Origin: Ralstonia sp. UNC404CL21Col
GTDB lineage: Bacteria; Pseudomonadota; Gammaproteobacteria; Burkholderiales; Burkholderiaceae
Assembly: GCF_000620465.1 (NCBI RefSeq)
Contig: NZ_JIBE01000003.1
Span: 620,001 to 684,000, forward strand
Reading direction: 5' to 3'
Length of the DNA stretch: 64,000 nt
This document shows, piece by piece, positions 41,327-55,031 of this stretch. The notes under the pieces are model-generated. The model was not told the DNA's origin and made no database searches. It worked only from the letters and a program-made list of their open reading frames with translations. Made by a program: the position numbers and the translations under genes. Position 1 is the stretch's first letter, and each line of letters starts with the position of its first letter.

Positions 41327-41776
41327 ATGAAATGCCCCTTTTGCGGCCACGCGGCCACCCAGGTGATTGATACCCGCATGTCGGAAGAAGGCGACACTGT
41401 GCGCCGCCGCCGTCGCTGCGAATCCTGCGACCGCCGATTCACGACCTACGAACGCATCGAGCTGTTCTTTCCGGCCGTCGTCAAAAAGAACGGCAGCCGC
41501 GTCGACTACGACCGCAACAAGGTCAAGGATTCCATGCGGCTGGCGCTGCGCAAGCGCCCCGTATCCGCCGAGGCCATCGACGAGGCCATCGCCCGCATCG
41601 AAGAAAAACTCCTCAGCCACGGCGAAAAGGAAATCGGCAGCGACCGCGTCGGCGAACTGGTGATGCGCGAACTCAAGCGGCTGGACAAGATCGGGTACAT
41701 CCGCTTTGCGTCGGTGTATCGGAGTTTTGAGGATGTGTCGGAATTTCGCGACATGCTCGACGAATTCCGCCAATAG
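41327..41776 (+). CDS. nrdR: transcriptional repressor NrdR
   Basis: NrdR represses ribonucleotide reductase genes by binding NrdR boxes, with ATP/dATP sensing. The 149-residue product has a zinc ribbon ([15 protein letters not shown] and [13 protein letters not shown]) and an ATP-cone domain ([20 protein letters not shown]). A GAGGAG sequence precedes the ATG. glyA-nrdR is a common neighbour pair. Confidence 0.97.
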
Positions 41777-41806
41777 ACGCCGTTCTCCCCCACTGCTCCA
41801 GCTAGC

Positions 41807-41929
41807 GTTCCGACCAAAATTTCGGTTAAATCCGCTGTCAAAGCAAAGAAGTAGCACTTTGTCACAATCTTGGCGTACCATGCCCGGATAAGTGACGAAA
41901 GAAGCATTAAAAAAATAGTTGGTCGGAAC
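41807..41929. repeat. 11-bp inverted repeat bracketing the first pil promoter region
   Basis: GTTCCGACCAA at 41807-41817 is the exact reverse complement of TTGGTCGGAAC at 41919-41929. The 101 bp between them are AT-richer than the surroundings and must hold the promoter of the first minor-pilin operon. The right arm ends 17 bp before the pilV start. The arms may be paired operator sites or one long stem. Confidence 0.75.
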
Positions 41930-41946
41930 AATCTGCGGGAGTCACC

Positions 41947-42582
41947 ATGCGCCACGCTTTGCCGGGGAAAGCGCTTGGCTTCACCATGCTCGAAGCATTG
42001 ATCGCCGTGCTGATTTTGGCCGTCGGCGTGCTGAGTGTCGCCAATCTTTTAATCAAGTCGTATCGGTTCACGCAGCAGGGAGCGTATGACACGCTGGCCC
42101 TGCAATTGGCGTCGAATATGGCGGATCGGATGCGGGCCAATTCGAGCACGCTCGGCACCGCCAGCTCGCCTTACTTCATCGATACCCAGAGCGCCAGCGG
42201 AACGTCTGCCATCAATTTTTATGCGCAGAGTTGCGTGACCGGCGCAACCAACTGTGGATGCACGTCGGGGAGCGCCGTATGCGCCGCTGCCGCCGCCCAG
42301 TTCGACATCATCGAATGGGCAAGCGCCGTTCAGGGCGCTCTGCCGGGCGGCCGCGCAGTCGTTTGCCGTGACACCGTAACCTACTCGACTACCGGGGGTT
42401 TCAGCGGATGGAACTGCGATAAAGCGGCCACGTCGCCGGTCGTGATCAAGATGGGCTGGGTCTCACGCTTCTCCAACAAGGACTTGTCAGCCAGCGCCGC
42501 AGCGGCGAACGCAGCAGATGCAGCCAGTTCGGTGGCGCCAAATCCGCAGATGGTCGTCGTCGTGGATACGGGAGGCCAGTGA
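41947..42582 (+). CDS. pilV: type IV minor pilin PilV, first copy
   Basis: The 211-residue product has a short basic leader and a class III prepilin-peptidase site GFTMLEALIAVLILAVGVLS, with glycine at -1 and glutamate at +5. PilV is part of the tip/priming complex of the type IV pilus. It is the first gene of the six-gene operon pilV-pilW-pilX-pilY1-pilE-fimT. A GGGAG Shine-Dalgarno precedes the start. Its stop overlaps the pilW start by one base (TGATG). Confidence 0.92.
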   Translation: MRHALPGKALGFTMLEALIAVLILAVGVLSVANLLIKSYRFTQQGAYDTLALQLASNMADRMRANSSTLGTASSPYFIDTQSASGTSAINFYAQSCVTGATNCGCTSGSAVCAAAAAQFDIIEWASAVQGALPGGRAVVCRDTVTYSTTGGFSGWNCDKAATSPVVIKMGWVSRFSNKDLSASAAAANAADAASSVAPNPQMVVVVDTGGQ

Positions 42583-43538
42583 TGCGTCGCCCTCTCGTTC
42601 GCTCGATCGCTCATGCACGCGGCTTCTCGCTCATCGAGCTGATGGTCGCCCTGGTGATCTCGCTGCTGGTGCTGGTGGCGACCGTGTCGTTCTATCTGAT
42701 GACGCGCTCGACCTACACGACCATCGACGACAGCTCGAACCTGGAGGAGCGCGGACAATTCGCCCTCGGCGTCATCACACGAGCCCTTCGGCAAACGGCG
42801 TTTTCGCCGCCGAATACGTCCGGCGGTGGAATGATCCAGCTTGCTCAAAGCGACCCGCCCATGATCAGCGGGGTGGACGGTTGCGATAACCCAGGCGATG
42901 TGGAATCGCTTTCGCAAACGGTAACGGCATCGTGCAAGAACACCATGGTGGACAAGAACAACGATGCCCTGGAGGTCCGCTTTTTCGGCTCCGGCACCGC
43001 TGCGAATCCAACCGTGCCGGACAATTCGATGGTCGACTGCTCCGGCCAAGGCGTCGCCTCCCCCACCAGCATTGACCTGGCAGCGAGCCAGCGTGGCCTG
43101 TCGATGTTCTTCGTTCAGACCGACAGCACTGGTCCATACCTCGCCTGCAAGTTCCGACAGCGCGACAGCACAGGCGCCGCTACGGCAACGTTCGCCACCC
43201 AGCAACTGGTGCCGGGCGTGGAGTCGCTGCAGTTTCTGTATGGCGTATCGGTAGACGGCGACGCGGTGCCGGACGTGTTCAAACGCGCCACCGACATGTC
43301 GACGACCGACTGGCAGAACGTCTACGCCGTCAAGGTGGCGCTGGTAGTACGTGCCGACAACGCCAGTGCAGACGTTGGCAGCGGCGCACAGAAGTTCACC
43401 TTGTTCGGTAAGCAATACACCTACGGCGACGGCACCTACCAAGCCACGGCAAACACGCAGATGGCGCGGCGGCTCTTTACCGCCACGGTTCAAACGCGCA
43501 ACTACATGACCTGCTTCTCGGGGGATCCGTCATGCTGA
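42582..43538 (+). CDS. pilW: type IV minor pilin PilW, first copy
   Basis: The 318-residue product begins with a 14-15 residue leader and the prepilin site RGFSLIELMVALVISLLVL (Glu+5 present). The rest is a large beta-rich pilin head with several cysteines. GGAGG at 42571-42575 is well placed for ATG 42582. PilW belongs with PilV, PilX and PilY1 in the pilus tip complex. It overlaps pilX by 7 bp. Confidence 0.92.
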   Translation: MRRPLVRSIAHARGFSLIELMVALVISLLVLVATVSFYLMTRSTYTTIDDSSNLEERGQFALGVITRALRQTAFSPPNTSGGGMIQLAQSDPPMISGVDGCDNPGDVESLSQTVTASCKNTMVDKNNDALEVRFFGSGTAANPTVPDNSMVDCSGQGVASPTSIDLAASQRGLSMFFVQTDSTGPYLACKFRQRDSTGAATATFATQQLVPGVESLQFLYGVSVDGDAVPDVFKRATDMSTTDWQNVYAVKVALVVRADNASADVGSGAQKFTLFGKQYTYGDGTYQATANTQMARRLFTATVQTRNYMTCFSGDPSC

Positions 43539-44176
43539 TGATCTCCACTCGCACTCGAGGGCGTTCGACGGGCTTCGCGTTGATCACTGCACTGGTGATG
43601 CTGCTCGTCATCACCCTTTTGGCAATCGGCGGCGCGCGGCTGGCCATCGACTCCAAGCGGATGAGTCGAAACCAGCGCGACACGGACATCGCTTTCCAGG
43701 CGGCCGAGGCGGCCTTGCGCGACGCTGAATACGACATCCAGAACGCATCGGCCGGCAACGGTACGGCCACCAACACGCGATCGGCAATCTTCGACCCGAC
43801 CAAAGCCACTGGCTTTCCTGGCAGCGGTTGCAACACCGGCGGCCCCGGCACAGCAACGCCCTATCAGGGACTATGCCAACCGGCCCCTGATGGCGCCACC
43901 GGTGTCTGGAATACGGTGAGCTGGAGTGCATCAGGCACGCCGCAGACCGTGGGTTTCGGCGACTTTACCGGCCGGACCTTCCCCACGGGCACGGGCCTGC
44001 TGCCCGCACAGAAACCGCGCTACATCATTGAGATCCTGCCGGACAGAACAATCGGCGGGAATGTGCAGGGGCCTGCCACTTTCCTCTATCGCATCACAGC
44101 AGTCGGTTGGGGGCCCAATCTAGGGGCACAGGTCATGCTGCAGTCGGTCTATCGCAAGACCGATGCACCGGGCTGA
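43532..44176 (+). CDS. pilX: type IV minor pilin PilX, first copy
   Basis: The 214-residue product has a leader ending in Gly and the hydrophobic segment FALITALVMLLVITLLAIGG. The +5 residue is threonine, not glutamate, which is normal for PilX/GspK-type tip pilins. RNQRDTDIAFQAAEAALRDAE and the C-terminal YRITAVGWGPNLGAQVMLQS are typical. It is followed by pilY1 after 24 bp. Confidence 0.9.
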   Translation: MLMISTRTRGRSTGFALITALVMLLVITLLAIGGARLAIDSKRMSRNQRDTDIAFQAAEAALRDAEYDIQNASAGNGTATNTRSAIFDPTKATGFPGSGCNTGGPGTATPYQGLCQPAPDGATGVWNTVSWSASGTPQTVGFGDFTGRTFPTGTGLLPAQKPRYIIEILPDRTIGGNVQGPATFLYRITAVGWGPNLGAQVMLQSVYRKTDAPG

Positions 44177-44200
44177 CCAGCATAGGGCGACACGACAAAC

Positions 44201-47200
44201 ATGGCAAAAAAACAAAGCCTTTTCGGGGGGCTGAACACCATGAAAATCATTCGCGGCTTGCTGGCCGTTTTTGCAATGGGCTGGGTCTCGGTCATGGGCG
44301 CGGCCAACAGCGTGCCGACCGTGGCGATCTCCACTGTCCCGCTGTACGGGCGCAGCCAGAACGTGCACCCGAACCTGATGCTCTCGCTGTCGGTGGAATT
44401 TCCGACGACGGGCGCAGCGTATCGTGGCGCCTACGACAAGACCCAGACATACCTGGGTTATTTCAACGCTACGAAGTGCTACAACTACGATGCCACGAAC
44501 GGCTACTTCGTGATCTCCGGTGCGGCCAACTCGTCATTCGAGTGTTCGGGAAATTTCTCGGGCAATTTCATGAACTGGGCCGCCTCTTCGGCCATCGACG
44601 AGTTCCGCATGGCGCTGACGGGCGGCGATCGCGTCATCGATACATCGACTCAGACCGTGCTACAGCGTGCCGTGCTGCGCTCGGACTTCTTCCGCAGCGG
44701 CTCGTACTTTCCGGTCAAGAGCATCAACGGCTCGGGCAACGTGAGTGCGCCGAACAAGGTCACGCCATTCAGCTATTCGACGCTGTACATCGTCTCGTGC
44801 GGCAACCACATTTTCTTTGCGGATCAGGACTACAGCAGCACGAGTTGCAGCAACCCCGGAGGGTACGGCGACCAGTACGACCGCAAGGGCAACCTGATAG
44901 AGCGCCGCTCATTCCGGGCTCAAGTACAAGTCTGCGATAGCAACGAAGGCTCAACACGCACCGATCTCTGTCTCAATTACAACGGCAACTACAAGCCGGT
45001 CGGCCAGATGCAGCTCAATGCCGATCGCATGCGCTTTGCTGCCTTTGGATATCTGAACGACAGCACGAACGATACAACGTTGGATCAGGACGAACGCTAC
45101 GGCGGTGTGTTGCGCGCGCCAATGAAGTACGTCGGGTCAACCGCTGTCGACACCAGCCTGAATGCGATTACCAACCCTGCGCCGGAGTTCGACCCAGTAA
45201 CGGGCATCTTCGCTGCCAACCCCCTCAATGCGGCCGAAGGCACCAGCGGTGTCATCAATTACCTGAACAAGTTCGGCCGCACCAGCGCCCAGCTCTCCGG
45301 TCAGCCGATGGGCTATCTGGGTGGCCCGACCGACAACCCCACCGGCAACTACAAGACGTTTGACCCGGTGAGCGAAATGTTCTACGAGAGCATCCGTTAC
45401 TTGCAATTCAAGCAAGGCCCCACGCCGGAAGCGGTCGCAGGCTTGCCCAACTCGACGTATTCGGACAACTTCCCGGTCTACAGCACCTGGGACACCGATC
45501 CGATGTTGAGCGGTTGCCAACGCAACTACGCGTTCCTGATCGGAGATATCAATACCCACGAGGATCACTACATCCCCGGCAACCAGGTCACCGGCCAGGG
45601 CGACCCCGCTCGTACGGTCAGTTCCTACGACAACTTTGACGTTCGCGCCTGGACCAACAAGGTTGGCGCACTGGAGACCAATACACCGGCCGCCGGCAAC
45701 AGCAACCCGCTCAGCTCGTCGTTTACCAACCTCGGCGACATCAATCACGCGACGTCGCATTGGGCTTCGTATTACCTCGCGGGCGTCGCGTACTGGGCGC
45801 ACACCTATGGCTTCCGCCCCGACATGCCGACAGCCCGCGTCACGACGTTCGTGATCGACGTGAACGAAAACGGCAACGGTACGGTGGGAGCAACGCAACG
45901 CCAGAGCCAGTTCTTTCTCGCCGCTAAGTACGGCGGTTTCCAGGACAACAACAACGACGGCAATCCGTTCAAGACGTTTGGTCCGGACGGCATCACGGTG
46001 GTCAACAACAACACCGAATGGGAAGCGGCTCCGACTGGCTCGAACATTCCGTACAACTGGTTCTTGGGTGGCCAACCTGCCACGATGATCGCCGCTATCA
46101 AGAACATCTTCGCGCAGATCGTCTCGTACGCCGGCACGCTGTCGGGCGTTGCCCTGTCGAGTGCGCGCATCACCGGCGGCTCCGGAAACAATACCTATGT
46201 GTACGCCCCTGGCTTTGACCAAAAGTGGAACGGCCGCCTTGCGGCTTATCAGCTCACGCTGAACGGCACCAACGTGCAGGTCAGTTCACAGGCCGCGTGG
46301 GAAGCTGGCGCGTTGCTGACCACGGCATACGGCGGTACGTCGGGTACCAAATACACCGGCCGCTCAGTGTTCACCACGAACTCGGACACCGGAAAGGGCG
46401 TGACCTTCGCCTGGGCGAACATCTCGCAAAGTCAGCAAACGTTGCTCAACACGAGTCCTAGCAGCGGCACCAACGATGGCAACGGGCAAAATCGACTCAA
46501 CTACTTGCTGGGCGACCAAAGCAAGGAAAACAGCTCGGTCAACTCGAGCGGTATCTTCCGCGCGCGCAACAGCATCCTGGGCGACATCATCGGCTCTGCG
46601 CCGACCTATGTGAGCGACCCATCTGGCGCGATCACGGATACGGGATACACGACGTTCACCGGCACGTACAACGGCCGTACGCCCATGATCTACGTGGGCG
46701 CCAACGATGGCATGGTGCACGGCTTCAACGCGAACACCGGCGCGGAAGTCTTTGGCTACGTACCGAACGCAGTCTTCTCGGGCCTGAACCAGCTGACATC
46801 CACCGCTTACGCCCACCGGCTTTTCGTGGATGCCACACCCGTCGCTGCGGAAGCGCAAGTCAACGGCAACTGGCGAACAGTTCTGACGGGCGGTTTCGGC
46901 GGCGGGGCTCAAGGCGTGTACGCACTCGACGTGACCGACCCGACAGGCTCGAAGGGAGGTTCTTTCACCGCCTCCAACGTGCTGTGGGAGTTCACCGACA
47001 AGGACGACGCCGACATGGGCAACGTGATGGGCACTCCGCTCATCGTCAAACTGCAGACTGGTACGGACACGTCGAAGACTCCGAATGTGCCGATCTACAA
47101 GTGGTTCGTGATGGTCGGCAACGGCCTGAACTCCAACGCGGTCGATGGCAGCTACAACGCCAACGCGCCGGCGGCTCTGTTTCTGCTGTCGCTGGACAAA

Positions 47201-48205
47201 CCCGCAGGGACGCCCTGGCAGCGCAACACCAACTACTTCAAGATCGTCACCCCGATTCCGGGTGGTACGCCGCCATACACGACAGCCAATGGTCTTTCCA
47301 CGCCAGCCATCGTGCCGGCCGTCAATGGTCGTGCCATGGCCGCCTACGCAGGCGACCTGCAGGGCAACCTGTGGAAGTTCGTACTCTCGGGCGACAGCAC
47401 GACCTGGAACGAGACCTCCACCGCCCTGCCCGCCTACGGAGGCGGCACGACAAAGAAACCGCTGTTTGCCGCAACCGACAACTACAGCACGCCCGGCCGG
47501 AACCAGCCGATCACCATGGCACCCCAGATCGTCTATGCGCCTGGCGGTTACATGATCCTGTTTGGCACCGGCAAGTACTACGAAACATCCGATACCGGAA
47601 CACCGACGCAATACAACAGCTTCTACGGCATCTATGACGACGGTGGTAGCACCAACTACATCACGGACCGCAGCAAACTTAACAAGCTGACGGCGACGGC
47701 CTCGTCCGATGGCAAGTCATACAGCATTGCCTACGCGACAGGTGCCGCTGCGGTTGGCTACGCCAGCCCCCGTAAGCCTGGCTGGGTGCTTGATTTCCCT
47801 GACAGCACGGAAAAGCAGGTGACGGCAGCGGTGGCGTCCGACGGAGTGGTCTACTTCAACTCGCTCACCGGCGGCGACGCGTGCGGTAATAACGGCAGCA
47901 GCCGCAGCTATGCGCTGAACGTGCTGACCGGCATGCCGCTGGGCGGCACGACCACGGGGTACCAATCGTCGACAGGGCTGCTCGGCGCACCTTCGCTGAT
48001 TGTCATCTCCATCGCCAACGGTTCGCGTGACTCGGTGGGTGGCACGGTGGAAACCAAGACGAAGATCGTGCTGTCGCCGGGCACTCAAGGCCTGACGGTG
48101 GGCAACTCGAATGGCTCAGGTGGATCGGGCGGTTCAGTCTCGCAGATTACCCAGCGACGCGGCCGTGCCGGCTGGCGCGAAGTCCGCAACTTCACGCTGA
48201 ACTGA
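44201..48205 (+). CDS. pilY1: PilY1 pilus-tip adhesin, first copy, full length
   Basis: The 1334-residue product has a signal peptide (about residues 14-36), an N-terminal vWA-like domain, GNFMNWAASSAIDEFRMALT, an Asp/Asn calcium-type loop DNNNDGNP near residue 582, and the C-terminal beta-propeller with IYVGANDGMVHGF near residue 831. PilY1 primes pilus assembly at the tip and acts in adhesion and surface sensing. The residues expected to form the MIDAS motif (DxSxS) read LSLSVEFPTT at about 61-70, so metal binding there is doubtful. ATG 44240 has a better ribosome site (GGGGGG) than 44201. Confidence 0.92.
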   Translation: MAKKQSLFGGLNTMKIIRGLLAVFAMGWVSVMGAANSVPTVAISTVPLYGRSQNVHPNLMLSLSVEFPTTGAAYRGAYDKTQTYLGYFNATKCYNYDATNGYFVISGAANSSFECSGNFSGNFMNWAASSAIDEFRMALTGGDRVIDTSTQTVLQRAVLRSDFFRSGSYFPVKSINGSGNVSAPNKVTPFSYSTLYIVSCGNHIFFADQDYSSTSCSNPGGYGDQYDRKGNLIERRSFRAQVQVCDSNEGSTRTDLCLNYNGNYKPVGQMQLNADRMRFAAFGYLNDSTNDTTLDQDERYGGVLRAPMKYVGSTAVDTSLNAITNPAPEFDPVTGIFAANPLNAAEGTSGVINYLNKFGRTSAQLSGQPMGYLGGPTDNPTGNYKTFDPVSEMFYESIRYLQFKQGPTPEAVAGLPNSTYSDNFPVYSTWDTDPMLSGCQRNYAFLIGDINTHEDHYIPGNQVTGQGDPARTVSSYDNFDVRAWTNKVGALETNTPAAGNSNPLSSSFTNLGDINHATSHWASYYLAGVAYWAHTYGFRPDMPTARVTTFVIDVNENGNGTVGATQRQSQFFLAAKYGGFQDNNNDGNPFKTFGPDGITVVNNNTEWEAAPTGSNIPYNWFLGGQPATMIAAIKNIFAQIVSYAGTLSGVALSSARITGGSGNNTYVYAPGFDQKWNGRLAAYQLTLNGTNVQVSSQAAWEAGALLTTAYGGTSGTKYTGRSVFTTNSDTGKGVTFAWANISQSQQTLLNTSPSSGTNDGNGQNRLNYLLGDQSKENSSVNSSGIFRARNSILGDIIGSAPTYVSDPSGAITDTGYTTFTGTYNGRTPMIYVGANDGMVHGFNANTGAEVFGYVPNAVFSGLNQLTSTAYAHRLFVDATPVAAEAQVNGNWRTVLTGGFGGGAQGVYALDVTDPTGSKGGSFTASNVLWEFTDKDDADMGNVMGTPLIVKLQTGTDTSKTPNVPIYKWFVMVGNGLNSNAVDGSYNANAPAALFLLSLDKPAGTPWQRNTNYFKIVTPIPGGTPPYTTANGLSTPAIVPAVNGRAMAAYAGDLQGNLWKFVLSGDSTTWNETSTALPAYGGGTTKKPLFAATDNYSTPGRNQPITMAPQIVYAPGGYMILFGTGKYYETSDTGTPTQYNSFYGIYDDGGSTNYITDRSKLNKLTATASSDGKSYSIAYATGAAAVGYASPRKPGWVLDFPDSTEKQVTAAVASDGVVYFNSLTGGDACGNNGSSRSYALNVLTGMPLGGTTTGYQSSTGLLGAPSLIVISIANGSRDSVGGTVETKTKIVLSPGTQGLTVGNSNGSGGSGGSVSQITQRRGRAGWREVRNFTLN

Positions 48206-48219
48206 TGGAAGGCGCCAAC

Positions 48220-48705
48220 ATGCAACTCCAACGCTCCTCCGTTTTCCGCCAGCGTGGCTTCACGCTGGTAGAACTGATGATCGTGGTCGCGATCGTCGCC
48301 ATCCTGGCCATCATCGGCTACCCCAGCTATACCCAATTCGTTCAGAAAGGGCGACGGGCGGAGGCAAAGGCGGCGCTCCTGTCAACCATGCAACTGTTCG
48401 AGCGTCACTTCGCGCAGGTCAACAGCTATGCATCGGCGCCGGGCGGCACATCAGCATGGACGGGGTTCAACACTTATTCTGGCGACTCGCCGAGCAGCTC
48501 AAACTACACCATCGGTGCAGCGCTCTGCGCGGGCAGCCCGGTCGGCGCCCAAGCAGACCAGTGCGTTGAGCTGACCGCCACGCCTGTGACAGGCAAGGCC
48601 GACACGACGTGCGGATCGCTGGTCTATCGGAGCACTGGCGAAAAGGGCAATTTGCTCCCCGGCGGCTCGTCTCCCACCATTCCCCCCACGACCGGGTGCT
48701 GGTGA
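48220..48705 (+). CDS. pilE: type IV minor pilin PilE, first copy
   Basis: The 161-residue product has the prepilin site RGFTLVELMIVVAIVAILAI with Glu+5, then YPSYTQFVQKGRRAEAKAALL. A GGAAGG sequence sits 7 bp before ATG 48220; the ATG at 48205 overlaps the pilY1 stop and lacks a site. PilE-type minor pilins connect the tip complex to the major-pilin fibre. Confidence 0.9.
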   Translation: MQLQRSSVFRQRGFTLVELMIVVAIVAILAIIGYPSYTQFVQKGRRAEAKAALLSTMQLFERHFAQVNSYASAPGGTSAWTGFNTYSGDSPSSSNYTIGAALCAGSPVGAQADQCVELTATPVTGKADTTCGSLVYRSTGEKGNLLPGGSSPTIPPTTGCW

Positions 48706-48709
48706 AACT

Positions 48710-49312
48710 ATGCGTGGCGTTCTCATACATCGCTCGAACGGCCGGGGCTCTCGTGGCTTCACGCTACTGGAGCTGATGGCCACCATCACGGTGGCAGCTG
48801 TCATCCTGATGCTGGCCGGTCCCAGCCTGAATGACTTCATGCGCAAGCAGCGCGTCATTACCGCCGTCGATTCGATCACTTCTGCGATCGGTCAGGCGCG
48901 CTCCATCGCGATCGCGACGAACAGCTACGTCACCATCGCGCCTGTAGATGGCACCAGCTGGAATAGCGGCGTGCGCGTCTTCTCAGAAGGCCAGAGCCCA
49001 AATGGCACATATAGCGCCACCGCAGACAAATTGCTTGGCCAGTACGACGCAATGCCCACCGGCATGACTGTGGCGTTCAAGAGCACCGCCAACATCGCGA
49101 GTTCGACCTCCAGCCAGACCTCACTGACTTACTCACCGGTCGGCTACACCGTGACCACGCCAGGCAAAGTCGCCCAGGTCAACGCTACGTTTATAGTGAA
49201 GTTTGTCGACGGCAAACCGCCTTCACGCGGCGTCATCATCAATGCACTGGGTCGCGCCCGAACCTGTGACCCCGCGGTTGATAGCACCTGCGTGCCCACG
49301 GCAACACAGTAG
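48710..49312 (+). CDS. fimT: FimT/GspH-type minor pilin, first copy
   Basis: The 200-residue product has the prepilin site RGFTLLELMATITVAAVILM and the GspH/FimT domain (SAIGQARSIAIATNSYVTI, INALGRARTCDP). FimT-like pilins have been linked to DNA binding for uptake in some naturally competent bacteria; here it is only an assignment by family. It ends the first operon, 60 bp before the second begins, with no clear terminator between. Confidence 0.88.
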   Translation: MRGVLIHRSNGRGSRGFTLLELMATITVAAVILMLAGPSLNDFMRKQRVITAVDSITSAIGQARSIAIATNSYVTIAPVDGTSWNSGVRVFSEGQSPNGTYSATADKLLGQYDAMPTGMTVAFKSTANIASSTSSQTSLTYSPVGYTVTTPGKVAQVNATFIVKFVDGKPPSRGVIINALGRARTCDPAVDSTCVPTATQ

Positions 49313-49372
49313 CGATTGCCACCAAACGTAACAGTCAAACCCCCGCATATCTCCTAAGGTAGGTCGGTTCTT

Positions 49373-49606
49373 GTGGCGCCCAATGCGCCTTTGCCGACCA
49401 TGCCTAAGTACCACCATCAAGTCCCCCGCACCGCGCGGCGCCAGCACGGCGCCATCCTGATCGAATCGCTCATCGCCCTGGCCATTCTCTCGCTGGGCGC
49501 GGCGGCCATGTTCCGTGCATTCGATAACCTGCGAGCCATCAGCCATGCCGCCAACCAACTTGGCGTAGACACACGCGCTCAACTCGGCCGAACGGAAGTC
49601 CGCTGA
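49373..49606 (+). CDS. short PilV-like minor pilin, second copy
   Basis: The frame gives 77 residues from GTG 49373, or 68 from ATG 49400. It has a basic leader and the prepilin site HGAILIESLIALAILSLGAA with Gly-1 and Glu+5, then a helix of about 30 residues and a stop. Thus the N-terminal pilin helix is intact but the globular head of PilV is missing. Its position before pilW2 marks it as the pilV of the second operon. It may be a shortened but functional pilin or a decayed gene. Confidence 0.7.
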   Translation: MAPNAPLPTMPKYHHQVPRTARRQHGAILIESLIALAILSLGAAAMFRAFDNLRAISHAANQLGVDTRAQLGRTEVR

Positions 49607-49607
49607 G

Positions 49608-50522
49608 ATGCCTTCCCCGCTCGCCCCGCCTGCGCGCGGCGTGTCGCTGGTCGAACTGCTGGTTGGCATGGTCATCGCATTGATCGTGTTGGGTATCGCG
49701 CTGCAACTGATCCTGGTCGCACGAGCCCACTACTGGCGGATGGCCGACGATGCGCTGATCCAGGATCGCGGCATGGAGGCCATCGAGTTCGTTGGCAAGG
49801 TGATACGCCAGGCAGGCTGGATCACCGATACGCCAGTCGTGTCGTCTGTCCGACGCTGGCCGGGCGCGAATGCCCCTTCATCGTTGCTCGGCCAAGACAA
49901 CTGCGGCAGACCGCACATGACTCCCACCTTCAACTGCGACCGCCGTGGTGAAGCCGCAAGTGACGCCCTACTCGTGCGCTTTTCTGGCCGAGGTGCAAAA
50001 AATGGCGACGGCGCTATGCGGGACTGCCTCGGGTACGGCGTGCCGGAGCGTCAAGCAACCCATGGCGACCCACGGTTGGGTGGTCTTATGCTCTATGTCA
50101 CCCACAGCGGCACCGCCAATGTGCCGCAACTCGTGTGTCGTGCGTTCCAACGAAATGTCGACGCTCCGGCCGACGGATCATCCGATGCCGTCATCCGCGG
50201 TGTGGAGACTCTCCAGTTGCTTTACACCGTTGGTTCGGACACGACGTCACCCGCCACTATTAAGTCGGCGCGCTCGATGCAAGACGAAGACTGGTTTCGC
50301 GTACGGCTCGTTCACGTAGGGATCGTTGTGCAGGGCGATCACCTCGCCGTCCAGGCGCCAACCGCGGACACGATCTCCCTATTCCCAGATCTGGCCGCAG
50401 TGCCAAACGCGCTCGCCGAAGACCTCCAATTCCGACCGGCGGATCCGCGCCGCAACCGTGCCCATTTCGCAGCGACCTTTGCTGTGCGCAACCCGCTGCG
50501 CTGCGGGGCCGATGCATGCTAG
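49608..50522 (+). CDS. pilW2: type IV minor pilin PilW, second copy
   Basis: The 304-residue product has the prepilin site RGVSLVELLVGMVIALIVLG (Glu+5), the stretch DRGMEAIEFVGKVIRQAGW and a C-terminal head (FAATFAVRNPLRCG). It starts 1 bp after the short pilV stop and overlaps pilX2 by 7 bp, the same overlap as in the first operon. Similarity to the first PilW is mainly in the N-terminal helix. Confidence 0.85.
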   Translation: MPSPLAPPARGVSLVELLVGMVIALIVLGIALQLILVARAHYWRMADDALIQDRGMEAIEFVGKVIRQAGWITDTPVVSSVRRWPGANAPSSLLGQDNCGRPHMTPTFNCDRRGEAASDALLVRFSGRGAKNGDGAMRDCLGYGVPERQATHGDPRLGGLMLYVTHSGTANVPQLVCRAFQRNVDAPADGSSDAVIRGVETLQLLYTVGSDTTSPATIKSARSMQDEDWFRVRLVHVGIVVQGDHLAVQAPTADTISLFPDLAAVPNALAEDLQFRPADPRRNRAHFAATFAVRNPLRCGADAC

Positions 50523-51136
50523 ACCGCCGTGAACGGACCAGCGGCTTCTCAATGATTGCCGTCACCAGCGCATTGATCGTCATTGGGTTACTTATGGTCG
50601 GCGCGTTGCATCTGGTTCTGGACCACAATCGTCGCGCCGCCCTGTCCGCCGACCATGCGCTCGCGATGCATGAAGCGGAAAGGGCATTGACCGCCGCCGA
50701 ATGCGAGCTTGGCATCGCCACAGGCACGCCCGGTATTGATGACTGCCACGCCGAGATAGGCACCGCGCGTATTGCAGCCCTCGATCCTCTCACTTTGGCT
50801 GGCTTCGTTCCACAGCAATGCGGGCAGAATTCTGCGCGCCGCGGCCTGTGCTGGCCAGAGGAAGGCGATTCCGTCGAGACGCTTTCCGGGCTGCTGCTCG
50901 ACGAGCGCAATGCGATACCGCTTCCTCCTCCCGCCGATGACAATTGGCGTCAGCCAGCACATCGGGCGCGCTATGTCATAGAGCCGATCCGCGATGCTCT
51001 ACCTGGTCAATGGATTCACGCAAACGCGTCCCGGGCCCCTGTACTCTTCCGCATCACGGCAGTAGGTTTCGGCACCGACGAAGCCGTCCACGTGAAGCTG
51101 CAAACGGTCTATCGACCTCGAGGTACCGAGCAGTGA
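50516..51136 (+). CDS. pilX2: type IV minor pilin PilX, second copy
   Basis: The 206-residue product has the leader TSG, then FSMIAVTSALIVIGLLMVGA without Glu+5, as expected for PilX. ALAMHEAERALTAAECELG and VLFRITAVGFGTDEAVHVKL match the first PilX (RITAVGWG...). It overlaps pilW2 by 7 bp and the GTG start of pilY1-2 by 4 bp. Confidence 0.85.
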   Translation: MLDRRERTSGFSMIAVTSALIVIGLLMVGALHLVLDHNRRAALSADHALAMHEAERALTAAECELGIATGTPGIDDCHAEIGTARIAALDPLTLAGFVPQQCGQNSARRGLCWPEEGDSVETLSGLLLDERNAIPLPPPADDNWRQPAHRARYVIEPIRDALPGQWIHANASRAPVLFRITAVGFGTDEAVHVKLQTVYRPRGTEQ

Positions 51137-52965
51137 AGTCGAGGCTCGTCACCATCTTGCTGATGGCCACCCTGAAGGCCTCTATGGCTGTAGCAGCGAG
51201 CGACCACCCCGCTGGACGTCTACCGACACACGTCATTGTTGCGCGTGGCGACGATGCGTGGGCCGGCCGACTGCGTGCGCTCCGCTTTCTGCCTACGCTG
51301 GGACCCCTTGATGCGCCTGCGCCGATTGATCTCTGGGAAGCCGGCGCGATTCTCAACGCAATGCCAGTGGATGCGCGGCATCTCTGGACGTTCCGCGACA
51401 GTGATTCCACACAGCACGCCCCAGCTCCCCTCCTGTGGGAAGCCCTGTCGCCCATGCAGCAAGCGGCGATCCATGCGACAGACGAATTCGGCGCGGAGCG
51501 CGTCAACTATCTTCGCGGCATCCGGCGACATGAACAAGGCAAACCGGCCTTGCGGCCGCGGACCGGACTGCTTGGTGCCATGCGCGGCGCGCGCGTGCAA
51601 CTGCTTGGCCCTCCCGGCTTTGTACTCGACCCGCGTCATATCCGTTTCCGCGAGCAACATGCGCGACGGCCTTGGATGGTCTACATCGGCGCCAACGACG
51701 GCATGCTTCACGGATTTGACGCTCTCACTGGGGCGGAACGTTTCGCCGTAATGCCTGACGCCGTTCTTGCAACGGCGGCCAAGAATGCTTCACCAGGGCA
51801 GCCTGTGCCACGGCCCGTCTGCCCACGCCCATTCGCTGCCGATGCATGGACTGGTATGGAATGGCGTTCGATACTTGCATGCACCAACGGATCGATGGCG
51901 CCCGGCCTCTTCCTCGTCGACGTCACCGAGTCGGTATCTTCTTCCTCTCCGCCGCCCATGCTGGCTTACGACGGCAGCGACGATCACGATGTTGGTGAGA
52001 TGGAAGGCCCTGCCCCCGTGGTGGCCGTGCCCGACGGCGGCGATTCCACACCACGCTGGTTTGCCATCAGCGGCAATGGCCGCGGCAAAGCGGGCGCGCC
52101 GAGCAAGCTCTTGTTGCTGTCAGTCGAACAGCAGCGATCGGCCTCCTGGCTTCCGGACCGCACAGCCTATGCGGTCACGATACCGACGGACGCCAGTCGT
52201 GGCGGCCTGGGGCCGGCCGCCGTAGCCCTCGGGCTAAAAGGCACTGCCACTGTGGCCTACGCCGGCGACGCTCAAGGCCAAATCTGGCGCTTTGATCTGA
52301 CAGGCGCCCCGCCGTGGTCGAACGCGCTGGGCAACAACGAGGCCGATCGCCGTCTTCCATTTTTTACGGCCACATCGCGTTCCGGATCGATTCAGCGAAT
52401 TCTCGCGCCGATTCTGCTTGCCGCAACGGCCGGTGGTCCGCTACTGGTCTTCACCGCCGTTGATGATGAGGGCAATGCCACGCTCTATGGGGTGGCAGAC
52501 GGTGGTTCACGCCGCCTTTCGCGCGACAGTTTGACGGGCCTGGGCGCTACGGACGTGGCTGATGGTGTCGTCATCGAACCCAATGCGCACAGCTCGCAAA
52601 ACGGCTGGCGCATCGACTTGCCCGGCGGGCAGTTGCCGGACGACCTCAGCGCGGCCGGCTCGCATAGCCTCCTGCTCACCACACGGGATATTGCAGGGCG
52701 TGACCGAGCTTACTTGCTAGACACACTGACCGGACTGCCACCGCGCAAGGACGGCCACACCGGTCACATACTCGCCAGCGCGCCGCTCATCACCGTGCAA
52801 ACGGACGCATTGGGCGCAACCGCTGGCGGGCAACCCACGCAAGCCGTCAATACAACGCTGTGGCATGTTGAAGGCGGGCGCATTCGTCAACTCGAAACGC
52901 GTCGCTACACCCGTCAACTCGGCCGGCTGAGCTGGCGAGAGATGACTGAGACGAGTACACGCTAA
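51133..52965 (+). CDS. pilY1-2: short PilY1-like protein, second copy
   Basis: The 610-residue product starts at GTG 51133 inside the pilX2 stop, with a signal peptide (MKSRLVTILLMATLKASMAV). The propeller motif YIGANDGMLHGFDALTG is already at residue 184, against 831 in the first copy. So about 650 N-terminal residues (the vWA-like region) are absent. ISGNGRGKAG, AYAGDAQGQIWRFDLTG and the C-terminal RQLGRLSWREM match the first copy in order. It is an intact frame, not a fragment. Confidence 0.85.
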   Translation: MKSRLVTILLMATLKASMAVAASDHPAGRLPTHVIVARGDDAWAGRLRALRFLPTLGPLDAPAPIDLWEAGAILNAMPVDARHLWTFRDSDSTQHAPAPLLWEALSPMQQAAIHATDEFGAERVNYLRGIRRHEQGKPALRPRTGLLGAMRGARVQLLGPPGFVLDPRHIRFREQHARRPWMVYIGANDGMLHGFDALTGAERFAVMPDAVLATAAKNASPGQPVPRPVCPRPFAADAWTGMEWRSILACTNGSMAPGLFLVDVTESVSSSSPPPMLAYDGSDDHDVGEMEGPAPVVAVPDGGDSTPRWFAISGNGRGKAGAPSKLLLLSVEQQRSASWLPDRTAYAVTIPTDASRGGLGPAAVALGLKGTATVAYAGDAQGQIWRFDLTGAPPWSNALGNNEADRRLPFFTATSRSGSIQRILAPILLAATAGGPLLVFTAVDDEGNATLYGVADGGSRRLSRDSLTGLGATDVADGVVIEPNAHSSQNGWRIDLPGGQLPDDLSAAGSHSLLLTTRDIAGRDRAYLLDTLTGLPPRKDGHTGHILASAPLITVQTDALGATAGGQPTQAVNTTLWHVEGGRIRQLETRRYTRQLGRLSWREMTETSTR

Positions 52966-53360
52966 TGCGGCCGCGACATGGATTCACGCTCGTCGAGTTG
53001 ATGGTCGTGCTAGTCGTTGGCGGCGTGCTGGCGTTTGCTGCGCAGTCGGCATGGATGACGTACTGGGAGCGAACGCGACGTGCCGCAGGCGCCGCCGCGC
53101 TGGTCGCCGCTTTAGTACAGCTGGAAGTACGCCATGCGCGCACAGGAAGGTATGACGACGGCGTGCCCCGCCCGAAGCTATATGTCGATGGGTACAGTAT
53201 CCGCAGCCAGCCTTGCTCCGGCGTGGAGGGCACGGAGCTGCCACCAGCCCAATGCATCCAAGTCATTGCAATCCCAGAGCGTGAAGACCCTGCGTGCGGC
53301 ATGTTGGTCCTCCGCAGCACGGGCGAGCGCTGGCCCGAAGATTCCGCATGTTGGCCATAA
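52965..53360 (+). CDS. pilE2: type IV minor pilin PilE, second copy
   Basis: The 131-residue product has the leader MRPRHG and the site GFTLVELMVVLVVGGVLAFA (Glu+5), followed by WERTRRAAGAAALVAALVQLEVRHARTG-like helix. The ATG overlaps the pilY1-2 stop by one base (TAATG). It ends CGMLVLRSTGERW, aligning with CGSLVYRSTGEKG in the first copy. Confidence 0.85.
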   Translation: MRPRHGFTLVELMVVLVVGGVLAFAAQSAWMTYWERTRRAAGAAALVAALVQLEVRHARTGRYDDGVPRPKLYVDGYSIRSQPCSGVEGTELPPAQCIQVIAIPEREDPACGMLVLRSTGERWPEDSACWP

Positions 53361-53875
53361 ACAAATCGAAACGACGGCCGCAGCAAGCCGGCGTGACGCT
53401 CATCGAATTGATCATCGTGACGGCGATCGTAGGGATACTTGCGACAGCGGCAGTCCCGCCAGTTATCGATTATTGGCAGAGAGAGACGGTCATCCTGCTA
53501 GCCGATCGCCTGGCCAGTGCGCTGTCCTTGGCCCAGAAGACCGCACAGCATCGGCGGGTCCGGACACTGCTCACCCCGCGCGACGCTTCCCGTGGCTGGG
53601 GCAGCGGCTGGCAATTGCTGGAGTTCGCGCCGGATGCTGGCACGGGCCCTGTGTCGGGAGCGAGAACGCTATTGTCAGAGCCTTTGCCCACGGCGCCTAT
53701 GGTGCAGCTGTATTCGAATCAACCGGCCGACGCGCTTTCCTACGAGCCTATGGGATACTCACGGATAGCCGGCGCCACGATGACCATTTCCAGCGGCCGG
53801 CATAGACGTAACGTAGTGATCAGCGCTGCTGGCCGGGCACGCGTCTGCAAGCCAAATCTGAACGGCGACTGCTAG
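53348..53875 (+). CDS. fimT2: FimT/GspH-type minor pilin, second copy
   Basis: The 175-residue product has the site AGVTLIELIIVTAIVGILAT (Glu+5) and the GspH/FimT domain (LADRLASALSLAQKTAQHRR, ISAAGRARVCKP). It overlaps pilE2 by 13 bp, tighter than in the first operon. ISAAGRARVC parallels INALGRARTC of the first FimT. ribD follows after 43 bp. Confidence 0.85.
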   Translation: MLAINKSKRRPQQAGVTLIELIIVTAIVGILATAAVPPVIDYWQRETVILLADRLASALSLAQKTAQHRRVRTLLTPRDASRGWGSGWQLLEFAPDAGTGPVSGARTLLSEPLPTAPMVQLYSNQPADALSYEPMGYSRIAGATMTISSGRHRRNVVISAAGRARVCKPNLNGDC

Positions 53876-53918
53876 TTAGAACCATCAACTCCCCTCAAAT
53901 CATTCTGGCTTTACACCC

Positions 53919-55031
53919 ATGTTCTCCGACTTCGACCACGCCATGATGCAGCGCGCCCTGGCGCTGGCCGAGAAGGGCTTGTTTACCACCACGCCGAACC
54001 CGCGCGTGGGCTGCGTGATCGTGCGTGACGACACCGTCATCGGCGAGGGCTACACACAACCCGCCGGCCAAGACCATGCTGAAATCCAGGCCATCAAGGA
54101 TGCGCAGTCTCGCGGCCACGATGTGCGCGGCGCCACTGCCTATGTGACGCTGGAGCCCTGCAGCCACTTTGGCCGCACGCCACCCTGCGCTGATCGCCTG
54201 GTTGAAGCTGGTATTGCGCGCGTGGTGGCGGCCATGGAAGATCCGAACCCCGCCGTTTCCGGACGTGGCTTGCAGAAGCTGCGAGACGCCGGCGTCGACG
54301 TGCGCTGCGGCCTCCTGGAACGCGAGGCGCGGGAGCTGAACATCGGTTTCGTCTCGCGCATGATGCGCGGCACACCCTGGGTGCGCGTGAAGGTCGGCGC
54401 ATCGCTGGATGGCCGCACCGCGCTGGACAACGGCATCAGCCAGTGGATCACCGAAACCGAAGCCCGCAACGACGGCCACCGCTGGCGCGCGCGTGCCTGC
54501 GCCATCCTCACCGGCATCGGCACGGTGCGCGAAGACAACCCGCGACTGACCGTGCGCGCCGTCAACACACCGCGCCAGCCGCGGCGTGTGCTGATCGACT
54601 CGGCGCTGGACGTGCCGCTCGATGCGCACATCCTGACTGCAGATGGCCACCACGAGCCGACGCTGATTTTTGCCGCTCACCCCGAAGCCGGCCGCATGCG
54701 TGCGTTGAGCGAGCGCGGCGCAGAGGTCATCCTGCTGCCCAACGCAGCCGGAAAGGTCGATCTGGCCGCGGTCCTGCGCGAACTGGGCCGCCGCGAGATC
54801 AACGAGCTGCATGTTGAGGCCGGTTTCAAGCTCAACGGCTCGCTGCTGCGCGAAGGGCTCGTTGACGAGGTCCTCGTTTATCTAGCGCCCAAGGTGCTCG
54901 GCTCGGGTCAGGGCATGTTCAATATGGGGCCGCTGCAGACGCTGGAAGGCGCGGCCGAATTCTTCTTTCACGATATCTCGCGCATTGGGGGCGACCTCCG
55001 CATCCTGGCGCGCCGCAACCCGACGGATTGA
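53919..55031 (+). CDS. ribD: bifunctional riboflavin deaminase/reductase
   Basis: The 370-residue product has the zinc deaminase motif HAE (residues 53-55) with LEPCSHFGRTPPC (cysteines 81 and 90), and a C-terminal reductase domain (RVKVGASLDGRTALDNG, NELHVEAGFKLNGSLL). It carries out the second and third steps of riboflavin synthesis. It heads ribD-ribE-ribBX-ribH. No FMN riboswitch is in front. Confidence 0.96.
   Translation: MFSDFDHAMMQRALALAEKGLFTTTPNPRVGCVIVRDDTVIGEGYTQPAGQDHAEIQAIKDAQSRGHDVRGATAYVTLEPCSHFGRTPPCADRLVEAGIARVVAAMEDPNPAVSGRGLQKLRDAGVDVRCGLLEREARELNIGFVSRMMRGTPWVRVKVGASLDGRTALDNGISQWITETEARNDGHRWRARACAILTGIGTVREDNPRLTVRAVNTPRQPRRVLIDSALDVPLDAHILTADGHHEPTLIFAAHPEAGRMRALSERGAEVILLPNAAGKVDLAAVLRELGRREINELHVEAGFKLNGSLLREGLVDEVLVYLAPKVLGSGQGMFNMGPLQTLEGAAEFFFHDISRIGGDLRILARRNPTD

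Follow-up and report, generated by a model that had tools for sequence, protein, structure and literature searches.

Gene Content of the Locus

The stretch of DNA analyzed here (the window) comprises 64,000 nucleotides from the genome of Ralstonia sp. UNC404CL21Col, contig NZ_JIBE01000003.1. Between nrdR and ribD it carries 12 genes on one strand that make up two sets of type IVa pilus minor-pilin genes. Set 1 (41947-49312), which occupies slot A, is a full set with a PilY1 of 1334 amino acids (aa). Set 2 (49400-53875), designated set B, has the same gene order, but its PilV has 68 aa and its PilY1 has 610 aa. In some relatives the body of this second PilY1 is gone and its C-terminal end is found on PilX. 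Of all the features described, this tailed PilX is the most interesting. The features are listed in window coordinates.

41327..41776, + strand: nrdR, upstream anchor of the exchange interval; protein identity 95-99% across the Ralstonia loci showing nrdR
41947..42582, + strand: pilV1, 211 aa, slot A type A1; NCBIfam TIGR02523 130.8 bits (cut-off 52.2)
42582..43538, + strand: pilW1, 318 aa; Pfam PilW 9.7e-26; alternative GTG start at 42579
43532..44176, + strand: pilX1, 214 aa; Pfam PilX 1.4e-17 and PilX_N 7.3e-15; alternative start at 43538
44201..48205, + strand: pilY1_1, long PilY1, 1334 aa; Pfam T4P_PilY1 1.3e-38; C-terminal end GRAGWREVRNFTLN
48220..48705, + strand: pilE1, 161 aa; Pfam N_methyl 1.2e-9 and ComP_DUS 3.4e-16; possible upstream ATG at 48205
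48710..49312, + strand: fimT1, 200 aa; Pfam GspH 6.6e-9; C-terminal GRAR (GRxR)
49400..49606, + strand: pilV2, mini-prepilin, 68 aa (51 mature); Pfam N_methyl only
49608..50522, + strand: pilW2, 304 aa, set B; Pfam PilW 4.3e-12
50516..51136, + strand: pilX2, 206 aa, set B, untailed in this genome; Pfam PilX 1.2e-9 and alignment
51133..52965, + strand: pilY1_2, short PilY1, 610 aa; GTG start overlapping the pilX2 stop; propeller domain; C-terminal end GRLSWREMTETSTR
52965..53360, + strand: pilE2, 131 aa; Pfam N_methyl 3.3e-9
53348..53875, + strand: fimT2, 175 aa, putative DNA receptor of set B; Pfam GspH 9.2e-12; C-terminal GRAR
53919..55031, + strand: ribD, downstream anchor of the exchange interval

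Matches to the PilW, PilX, PilY1, and GspH/FimT families were found in both sets (Pfam), and a match to PilV in set 1 only (NCBIfam). A preliminary description of this DNA had reported two complete minor-pilin operons in tandem. The order pilV-pilW-pilX-pilY1-pilE-fimT is indeed present twice on the + strand. The prepilin sites are also as it stated, with Gly-1 in all 10 pilins and Glu+5 in eight, the two PilX being without it. The pilW/pilX overlap is 7 bp in both sets, provided that pilX1 starts at 43532 and not at 43538. The distance of about 60 bp given between the sets applies only with a GTG start at 49373; with the ATG start the gap is 87 bp. "Complete" does not describe the second set, in which pilV2 has no family match past the N-terminal methylation motif and PilY1_2 is 610 aa long vs 1334 aa for PilY1_1. 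A scan of 41600-54100 for promoters and terminators returned one promoter-like site (shuffle mean 3.0) and eight terminator-like sites (shuffle mean 9.1).

A PilX That Carries the End of PilY1

The genus was sampled with 16 Ralstonia genomes including this one (G000; 11 contigs, 5.09 Mb), and the other genera compared are coded g3, g5, and g11. Set B is without the PilY1 body in 7 of the 16 genomes. In those seven, the pilX2 frame is extended in frame by about 60 codons and has the same end as PilY1_2 (RLxWRE), while pilX1 of the window is without a PilY1-type tail. A profile of the tailed PilX was compared with the untailed Ralstonia genomes drawn (n = 8). In seven of these, pilX2 covered positions 1 to about 205 and the end of pilY1_2 separately covered positions 206-263 (E 2.7e-8 to 4e-6); the exception is this genome. 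All seven tailed sets fall into a single clade (100/100), whose sister, G006, retains PilY1_2.

Tailed PilX proteins were also found, by reading sequences, in g3 (G129 and G161; loci L168 and L169) and g11 (G123 and G101; L170 and L171), where the set again has no PilY1. These proteins end in RIGWREL, RLGWREL, or RLSWREI. PF05567, the PilY1 family, has zero matches in any of these four genomes, all of which are listed as 100% complete. The PilX at L168:9202-10026 also has a long alanine/threonine-rich insert. On a tree of PilW, PilX, PilE, and FimT, which was built by a quick method and places G019 on a long branch, the tail state needs three changes, and the starred branches force three.

The tail motif occurs in 0/65 PilX of sets with PilY1, in 10/11 of sets without it, and in 0/150 other pilins. 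By homology the tail is present in all 11 sets without PilY1. Fisher's test gives p 1e-11 for the association, but related genomes are not independent and the fair count is three origins. For these counts the slot-A pilX of G001, whose contig ends before pilY1, was dropped, and the truncated slot-A PilY1 of G013 was excluded from the PilY1 counts. For 21 rows, at order level and on C5, PilY1 was taken as in the set if any PilY1 frame lay within the same 20 kb locus. In PilY1 itself the motif is present in 30/32 gene models, and in only 13/22 order-level rows, the PilY1 of the third set described below being among the misses.

PilX could be read in 16 of 30 order-level loci. None of these was tailed, and in 15 a PilY1-like frame followed. 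The exception, G230, has an untailed PilX with no adjacent PilY1-like frame, and a PilY1 elsewhere in its genome. A profile search of 399 genomes gave no match beyond profile position 226 among the matches listed; both tailed-PilX profiles contain the long Ralstonia linker, and other tailed PilX may escape them. The ratio of nonsynonymous to synonymous substitution rates (dN/dS) over the last 41 residues of the tail is 0.21-0.64 (5 pairs), so that in some pairs the tail is less constrained. On these comparisons, where a set has no PilY1, the tail of its PilX is homologous to the PilY1 end.

Descent of the Tandem and Exchange of Slot A

A B-type set adjoins ribD in 16/16 genomes of the genus and in 12/12 loci read in other genera. 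A second set stands beside it in 16/16 of the genus, and in 14 of these nrdR borders the second set in turn; in G001 and G013 the contig stops short of nrdR. An assembly artefact is thus rejected, as the preliminary description had argued, since two sets lie at the same place in every genome. A recent duplication is also rejected, since paired proteins are only 28-43% identical, in line with the strong sequence difference first reported.

The suggestion of an old duplication is supported. The PilY1 tree (54 rows, without the truncated slot-A PilY1 of G013) joins A1 and B (99, starred) and places the other slot-A types, A2a, A2b, and A3, elsewhere. The PilW tree (23 rows) agrees, joining A1 and B at 100 (starred). 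The same A1 and B tandem, on one strand, is also found in G019 of g5 and in G017, G138, and G175 of g3. According to these trees, one old tandem duplication gave rise to both sets of this genome. The simplest history is that the duplication predates the split of these genera and that slot A was replaced later.

Type A1 occurs in slot A of this genome only (1/16), whereas four Ralstonia genomes have A2a, six A2b, and five A3. A1 is on the same strand as set B; the other three types are on the opposite strand. On a tree of the rpoB region (16 tips), 10 changes are needed to account for the slot-A types and six for the B types. A combined slot-A/B label needs 12 changes vs 11.2 in shuffles, 191/200 of which were as low, so the types give no indication of having been inherited along with the species. 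Seven combinations of slot-A type and B type occur. Sister genomes can differ at the locus, as do G007/G010 (98.9% identical), G004/G015 (98.6%; node support 93/94), and G000/G011 (98.2%). Between G000 and G011, DNA homology of 98.1% ends at about 41734 inside nrdR and restarts at about 53916, at ribD. In g3, slot A is empty at two loci, an A2 set also occurs there, and three loci (L162, L164, and L165) have another type, whose PilY1 is about 1600 aa long.

The comparison of loci and trees indicates that slot A has been exchanged among Ralstonia species and that set B has been kept. The preliminary description had offered an acquired second set as an alternative; the place exchanged among relatives is instead that of the first set, and the second set is the constant one. 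PilY1 may also be exchanged at the single-gene level, on its own. In slot A of G005 and G008 (L054 and L067), DNA identity is 97.8% for pilY1 and 96.1% for pilE, and 82-86% for fimT, pilV, pilW, and pilX.

It is possible, at somewhat less than an even chance, that this genome received its set A from a related bacterium outside the genus and has not kept it since the duplication. It is the sole A1 set among the 16 genomes, its nearest kin are in g3, and slot A is often exchanged. However, PilY1_1 is 66% identical to its counterpart in G017, close to the 71% of ribD and as expected under vertical descent. The G+C content of set A, 61.1%, is also little different from the 62.1% of glyA-nrdR.

Reduced PilV and PilY1 in Set B

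The PilV of set B is a mini-prepilin. No NCBIfam match was obtained for pilV2 at 1e-10, and it does not reach the canonical PilV profile TIGR02523 that pilV1 does. The mature protein is a bare helix of 51 residues here and of 51-54 in 16/16 Ralstonia genomes. For comparison, the N-terminal helix of major pilins has a mean length of 51 residues (PMC11046646; this and the other published sources are cited from the available portions of their text). The B-set PilV of other genera has 83-132 mature residues (nine cases measured), so the shortening of PilV is graded. The possibility that pilV2 is a pseudogene is rejected, since it is equally short in all 16 genomes and has a dN/dS of 0.17-0.44 (9 pairs). 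Geobacter PilA-N and the Tad/Flp pilins likewise consist of little beyond the N-terminal helix. Those are major pilins, however, whereas PilV2 is a minor pilin by its position in the operon.

The short PilY1 matches 3hx6, the C-terminal domain of Pseudomonas aeruginosa PilY1, by profile (E 1.8e-44). A model of it, with a predicted local distance difference test score (pLDDT) of 71, matches the same structure by Foldseek (E 1.4e-21; template modeling scores 0.49/0.60). A full-length PilY1 combines a variable N-terminal adhesive region with the propeller. PilY1_2 lacks the former, while PilY1_1 has a long N-terminal part. The calcium loop Dx(D/N)xDGxxD of the P. aeruginosa type was found in neither PilY1 of the window.

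Two other explanations of set B appear unlikely. The first, in line with the two kinds of pilus suggested in the preliminary description, is that it is a second adhesive tip, with the short PilY1 itself an adhesin and two binding specificities available to the cell. The propeller of PilY1_2 is kept in 9/16 Ralstonia genomes, and Myxococcus runs several minor-pilin/PilY1 clusters with one machine (PMC7541494). The variable N-terminal region that PilY1_2 lacks is, however, located at the extreme tip in published models, and 7/16 genomes dispense with the PilY1 body in set B altogether.

The second, which we consider equally improbable, is that set B is a decaying relic of the tandem duplication, in which PilV lost its head and PilY1 first its N-terminal half and then its body, with the tail as a chance leftover of the deletion. 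The losses of parts are real, and set B does diverge fast: between this genome and G017, PilY1_2 is 34% identical and PilY1_1 66%. However, the frames of set B are intact in 16/16 genomes. The whole-gene dN/dS of set B, 0.12-0.50 in 9 pairs, indicates purifying selection. The row of G015 is partly empty in the dN/dS set and in the set-B tree, its pilX2 start model being too short. A relic would also hardly explain why a tailed PilX arose in three lineages, or why an untailed PilX without PilY1 in its set is found in 0/11 cases by homology.

FimT and a Probably Shared Pilus Machine

GRxR is the reported DNA-binding motif of FimT (PMC8897410). FimT2 has it at the C-terminus in 16/16 Ralstonia genomes, as do 12/12 B sets of other genera, and FimT1 of A1 sets has it in 5/5. 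It was found in none of 21 FimT-like pilins of the other slot-A sets: 13 A2 loci (12 + 1), five A3 loci, and three loci of the type with the PilY1 of about 1600 aa. The FimU-like pilins of A3 are also without it (0/5). A FimT profile gave 17 strong matches in the genus, at least 188.7 bits each, which are the 16 FimT2 and FimT1 of the window; the next match had 83.9 bits. ComEC is present in 16/16 genomes of the genus. The FimT of set B is by its motif a putative DNA receptor. The proposal that one set serves DNA uptake has only the GRxR motif and its distribution in its favor; in this genome both FimT proteins have the motif, as GRAR.

Only one PilB and one PilQ were found in this genome over curated cut-offs. 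The other strong ATPase and secretin matches are PilT/PilU, type II secretion, type III secretion-type, and Tad-like proteins. Both sets, and a third set on C5, would therefore share one machine, which makes the idea of two alternative pilus tips plausible.

The third minor-pilin/PilY1 set lies at G000:C5:63098-69661 (L071), immediately downstream of pilT and pilU. Its PilY1 is matched over nearly its full length in 9/16 genomes of the genus, and the copy in G011 is interrupted by a TGA. Three clustered PilA-like pilin genes, none with GRxR, are present at G000:C3:859682-863051. Two Tad-like ATPase/secretin pairs were found below curated cut-offs at G000:C3:753667-757422 and C4:247267-250340, and two secretins lie above the type III secretion cut-off at G000 C4:316805 and C4:577016.

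Comparison with Known Systems

Several known systems resemble this locus in part. Clusters 1-3 of Myxococcus xanthus are likewise full tip sets, each of four minor pilins plus PilY1, that go with one major pilin and one machine, and the C-terminal strand of PilY1 is predicted to be the partner of PilX there (PMC7541494, PMC13190605, and PMC11046646 for the clusters, the latter two for the pairing). However, those clusters lie apart and each has a large PilY1; a tailed PilX and a helix-only PilV are not described in the available portions of these reports. Xylella fastidiosa has two paralogous pilEVWX/fimT/pilY1 sets whose functions have diverged, and one of its three FimT proteins is the DNA receptor (PMC9956873). 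Its sets are in two genome regions, though, and the accessible text mentions neither loss of the adhesin nor a tail on PilX.

In Acinetobacter, a type IVa pilus cassette that includes a PilY1 homologue (ComC/PilY1 variants) is swapped en bloc between strains (PMC10374093). That is one slot, whereas here the swapped slot adjoins a constant second set. The competence operon of Vibrio cholerae, fimT-pilW-pilX-pilV, encodes a DNA-uptake tip of four minor pilins, in a different gene order from that found here, and the part of the report available names no PilY1 gene (PMC13249403). A tailed PilX or a helix-only PilV was not found described in the literature so far as it was available; a 2026 preprint by Ellison et al., known by its title, may treat it.

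Proposed Function of the Two Slots

Published AlphaFold models place PilX beside PilY1, with an eight-residue C-terminal strand of PilY1 joining the PilX sheet (PMC11046646, PMC13190605). With this in mind, the interval can be read as a cassette locus with two slots, both for tips of type IVa pili, in which set B would be of the DNA-uptake type and slot A would hold exchangeable tips. This is the explanation that we somewhat favor. Set B would be a tip specialized for DNA uptake, with a FimT that binds DNA. Such a tip could do without the adhesive N-terminal half of PilY1, which would have been lost, as would the whole body in some lineages. The indispensable part would be the last β-strand of PilY1, which would complete the β-sheet of PilX and license initiation of the pilus. 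Upon deletion of the PilY1 body, this strand would be retained in cis on PilX. PilV would be needed for its helix alone. Attachment and twitching would depend on the adhesin-bearing tip from slot A, which would compete with that of set B for the one PilB/PilQ machine.

Because the tail of PilX contains the C-terminal end of PilY1, we infer that the strand, and not the adhesin, is required for pilus initiation. The stronger proposition is that PilY1 can be reduced to its last strand of about 8 residues, and that repeated deletion of the adhesin has left a self-licensed, adhesin-free DNA-uptake tip beside an adhesive slot that is exchanged like a serotype cassette. The case for that proposition appears to be evenly balanced.

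A number of observations weigh against the proposed two-slot function. Strands were predicted in the tail by AlphaFold2, but pLDDT was below 50 for residues 204-263. Our own model is thus no evidence for or against docking of the tail on PilX. A Foldseek search with it returned nothing at E 0.001. In the tailed PilX of G008, P replaces R in the motif, and the tail is otherwise the same. In 2/5 pairs the dN/dS of the tail is above that of the PilX body (0.64 vs 0.42 and 0.56 vs 0.36). Set A of this genome also has a FimT with GRxR, so the division of labor is not clean. Finally, the apparent link of set B to DNA uptake hangs on one motif.

The preliminary description was right in part, above all about two old sets, but it overlooked the small size of PilV2, the shortness of PilY1_2, and the exchange of slot A. 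The parts of the locus are of known kinds. As a whole it joins two tip sets in an old tandem: one slot is swapped, and the other, which probably serves DNA uptake, sheds its adhesin down to one strand.

The need for PilY1, an adhesin, in pilus initiation has yet to be explained. The complementation of PilX by a PilY1 strand is a recent proposal based on structure models and a preprint, so far as the available text indicates. Three lineages without the PilY1 body but with its end on PilX provide an independent natural test of that model, and the tailed PilX proteins are compact candidates for testing it at the bench. A PilV with 51-54 mature residues raises the question of what role the heads of minor pilins have. 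The locus also indicates that a genus can exchange its pilus tips while keeping a putative DNA-uptake set constant.

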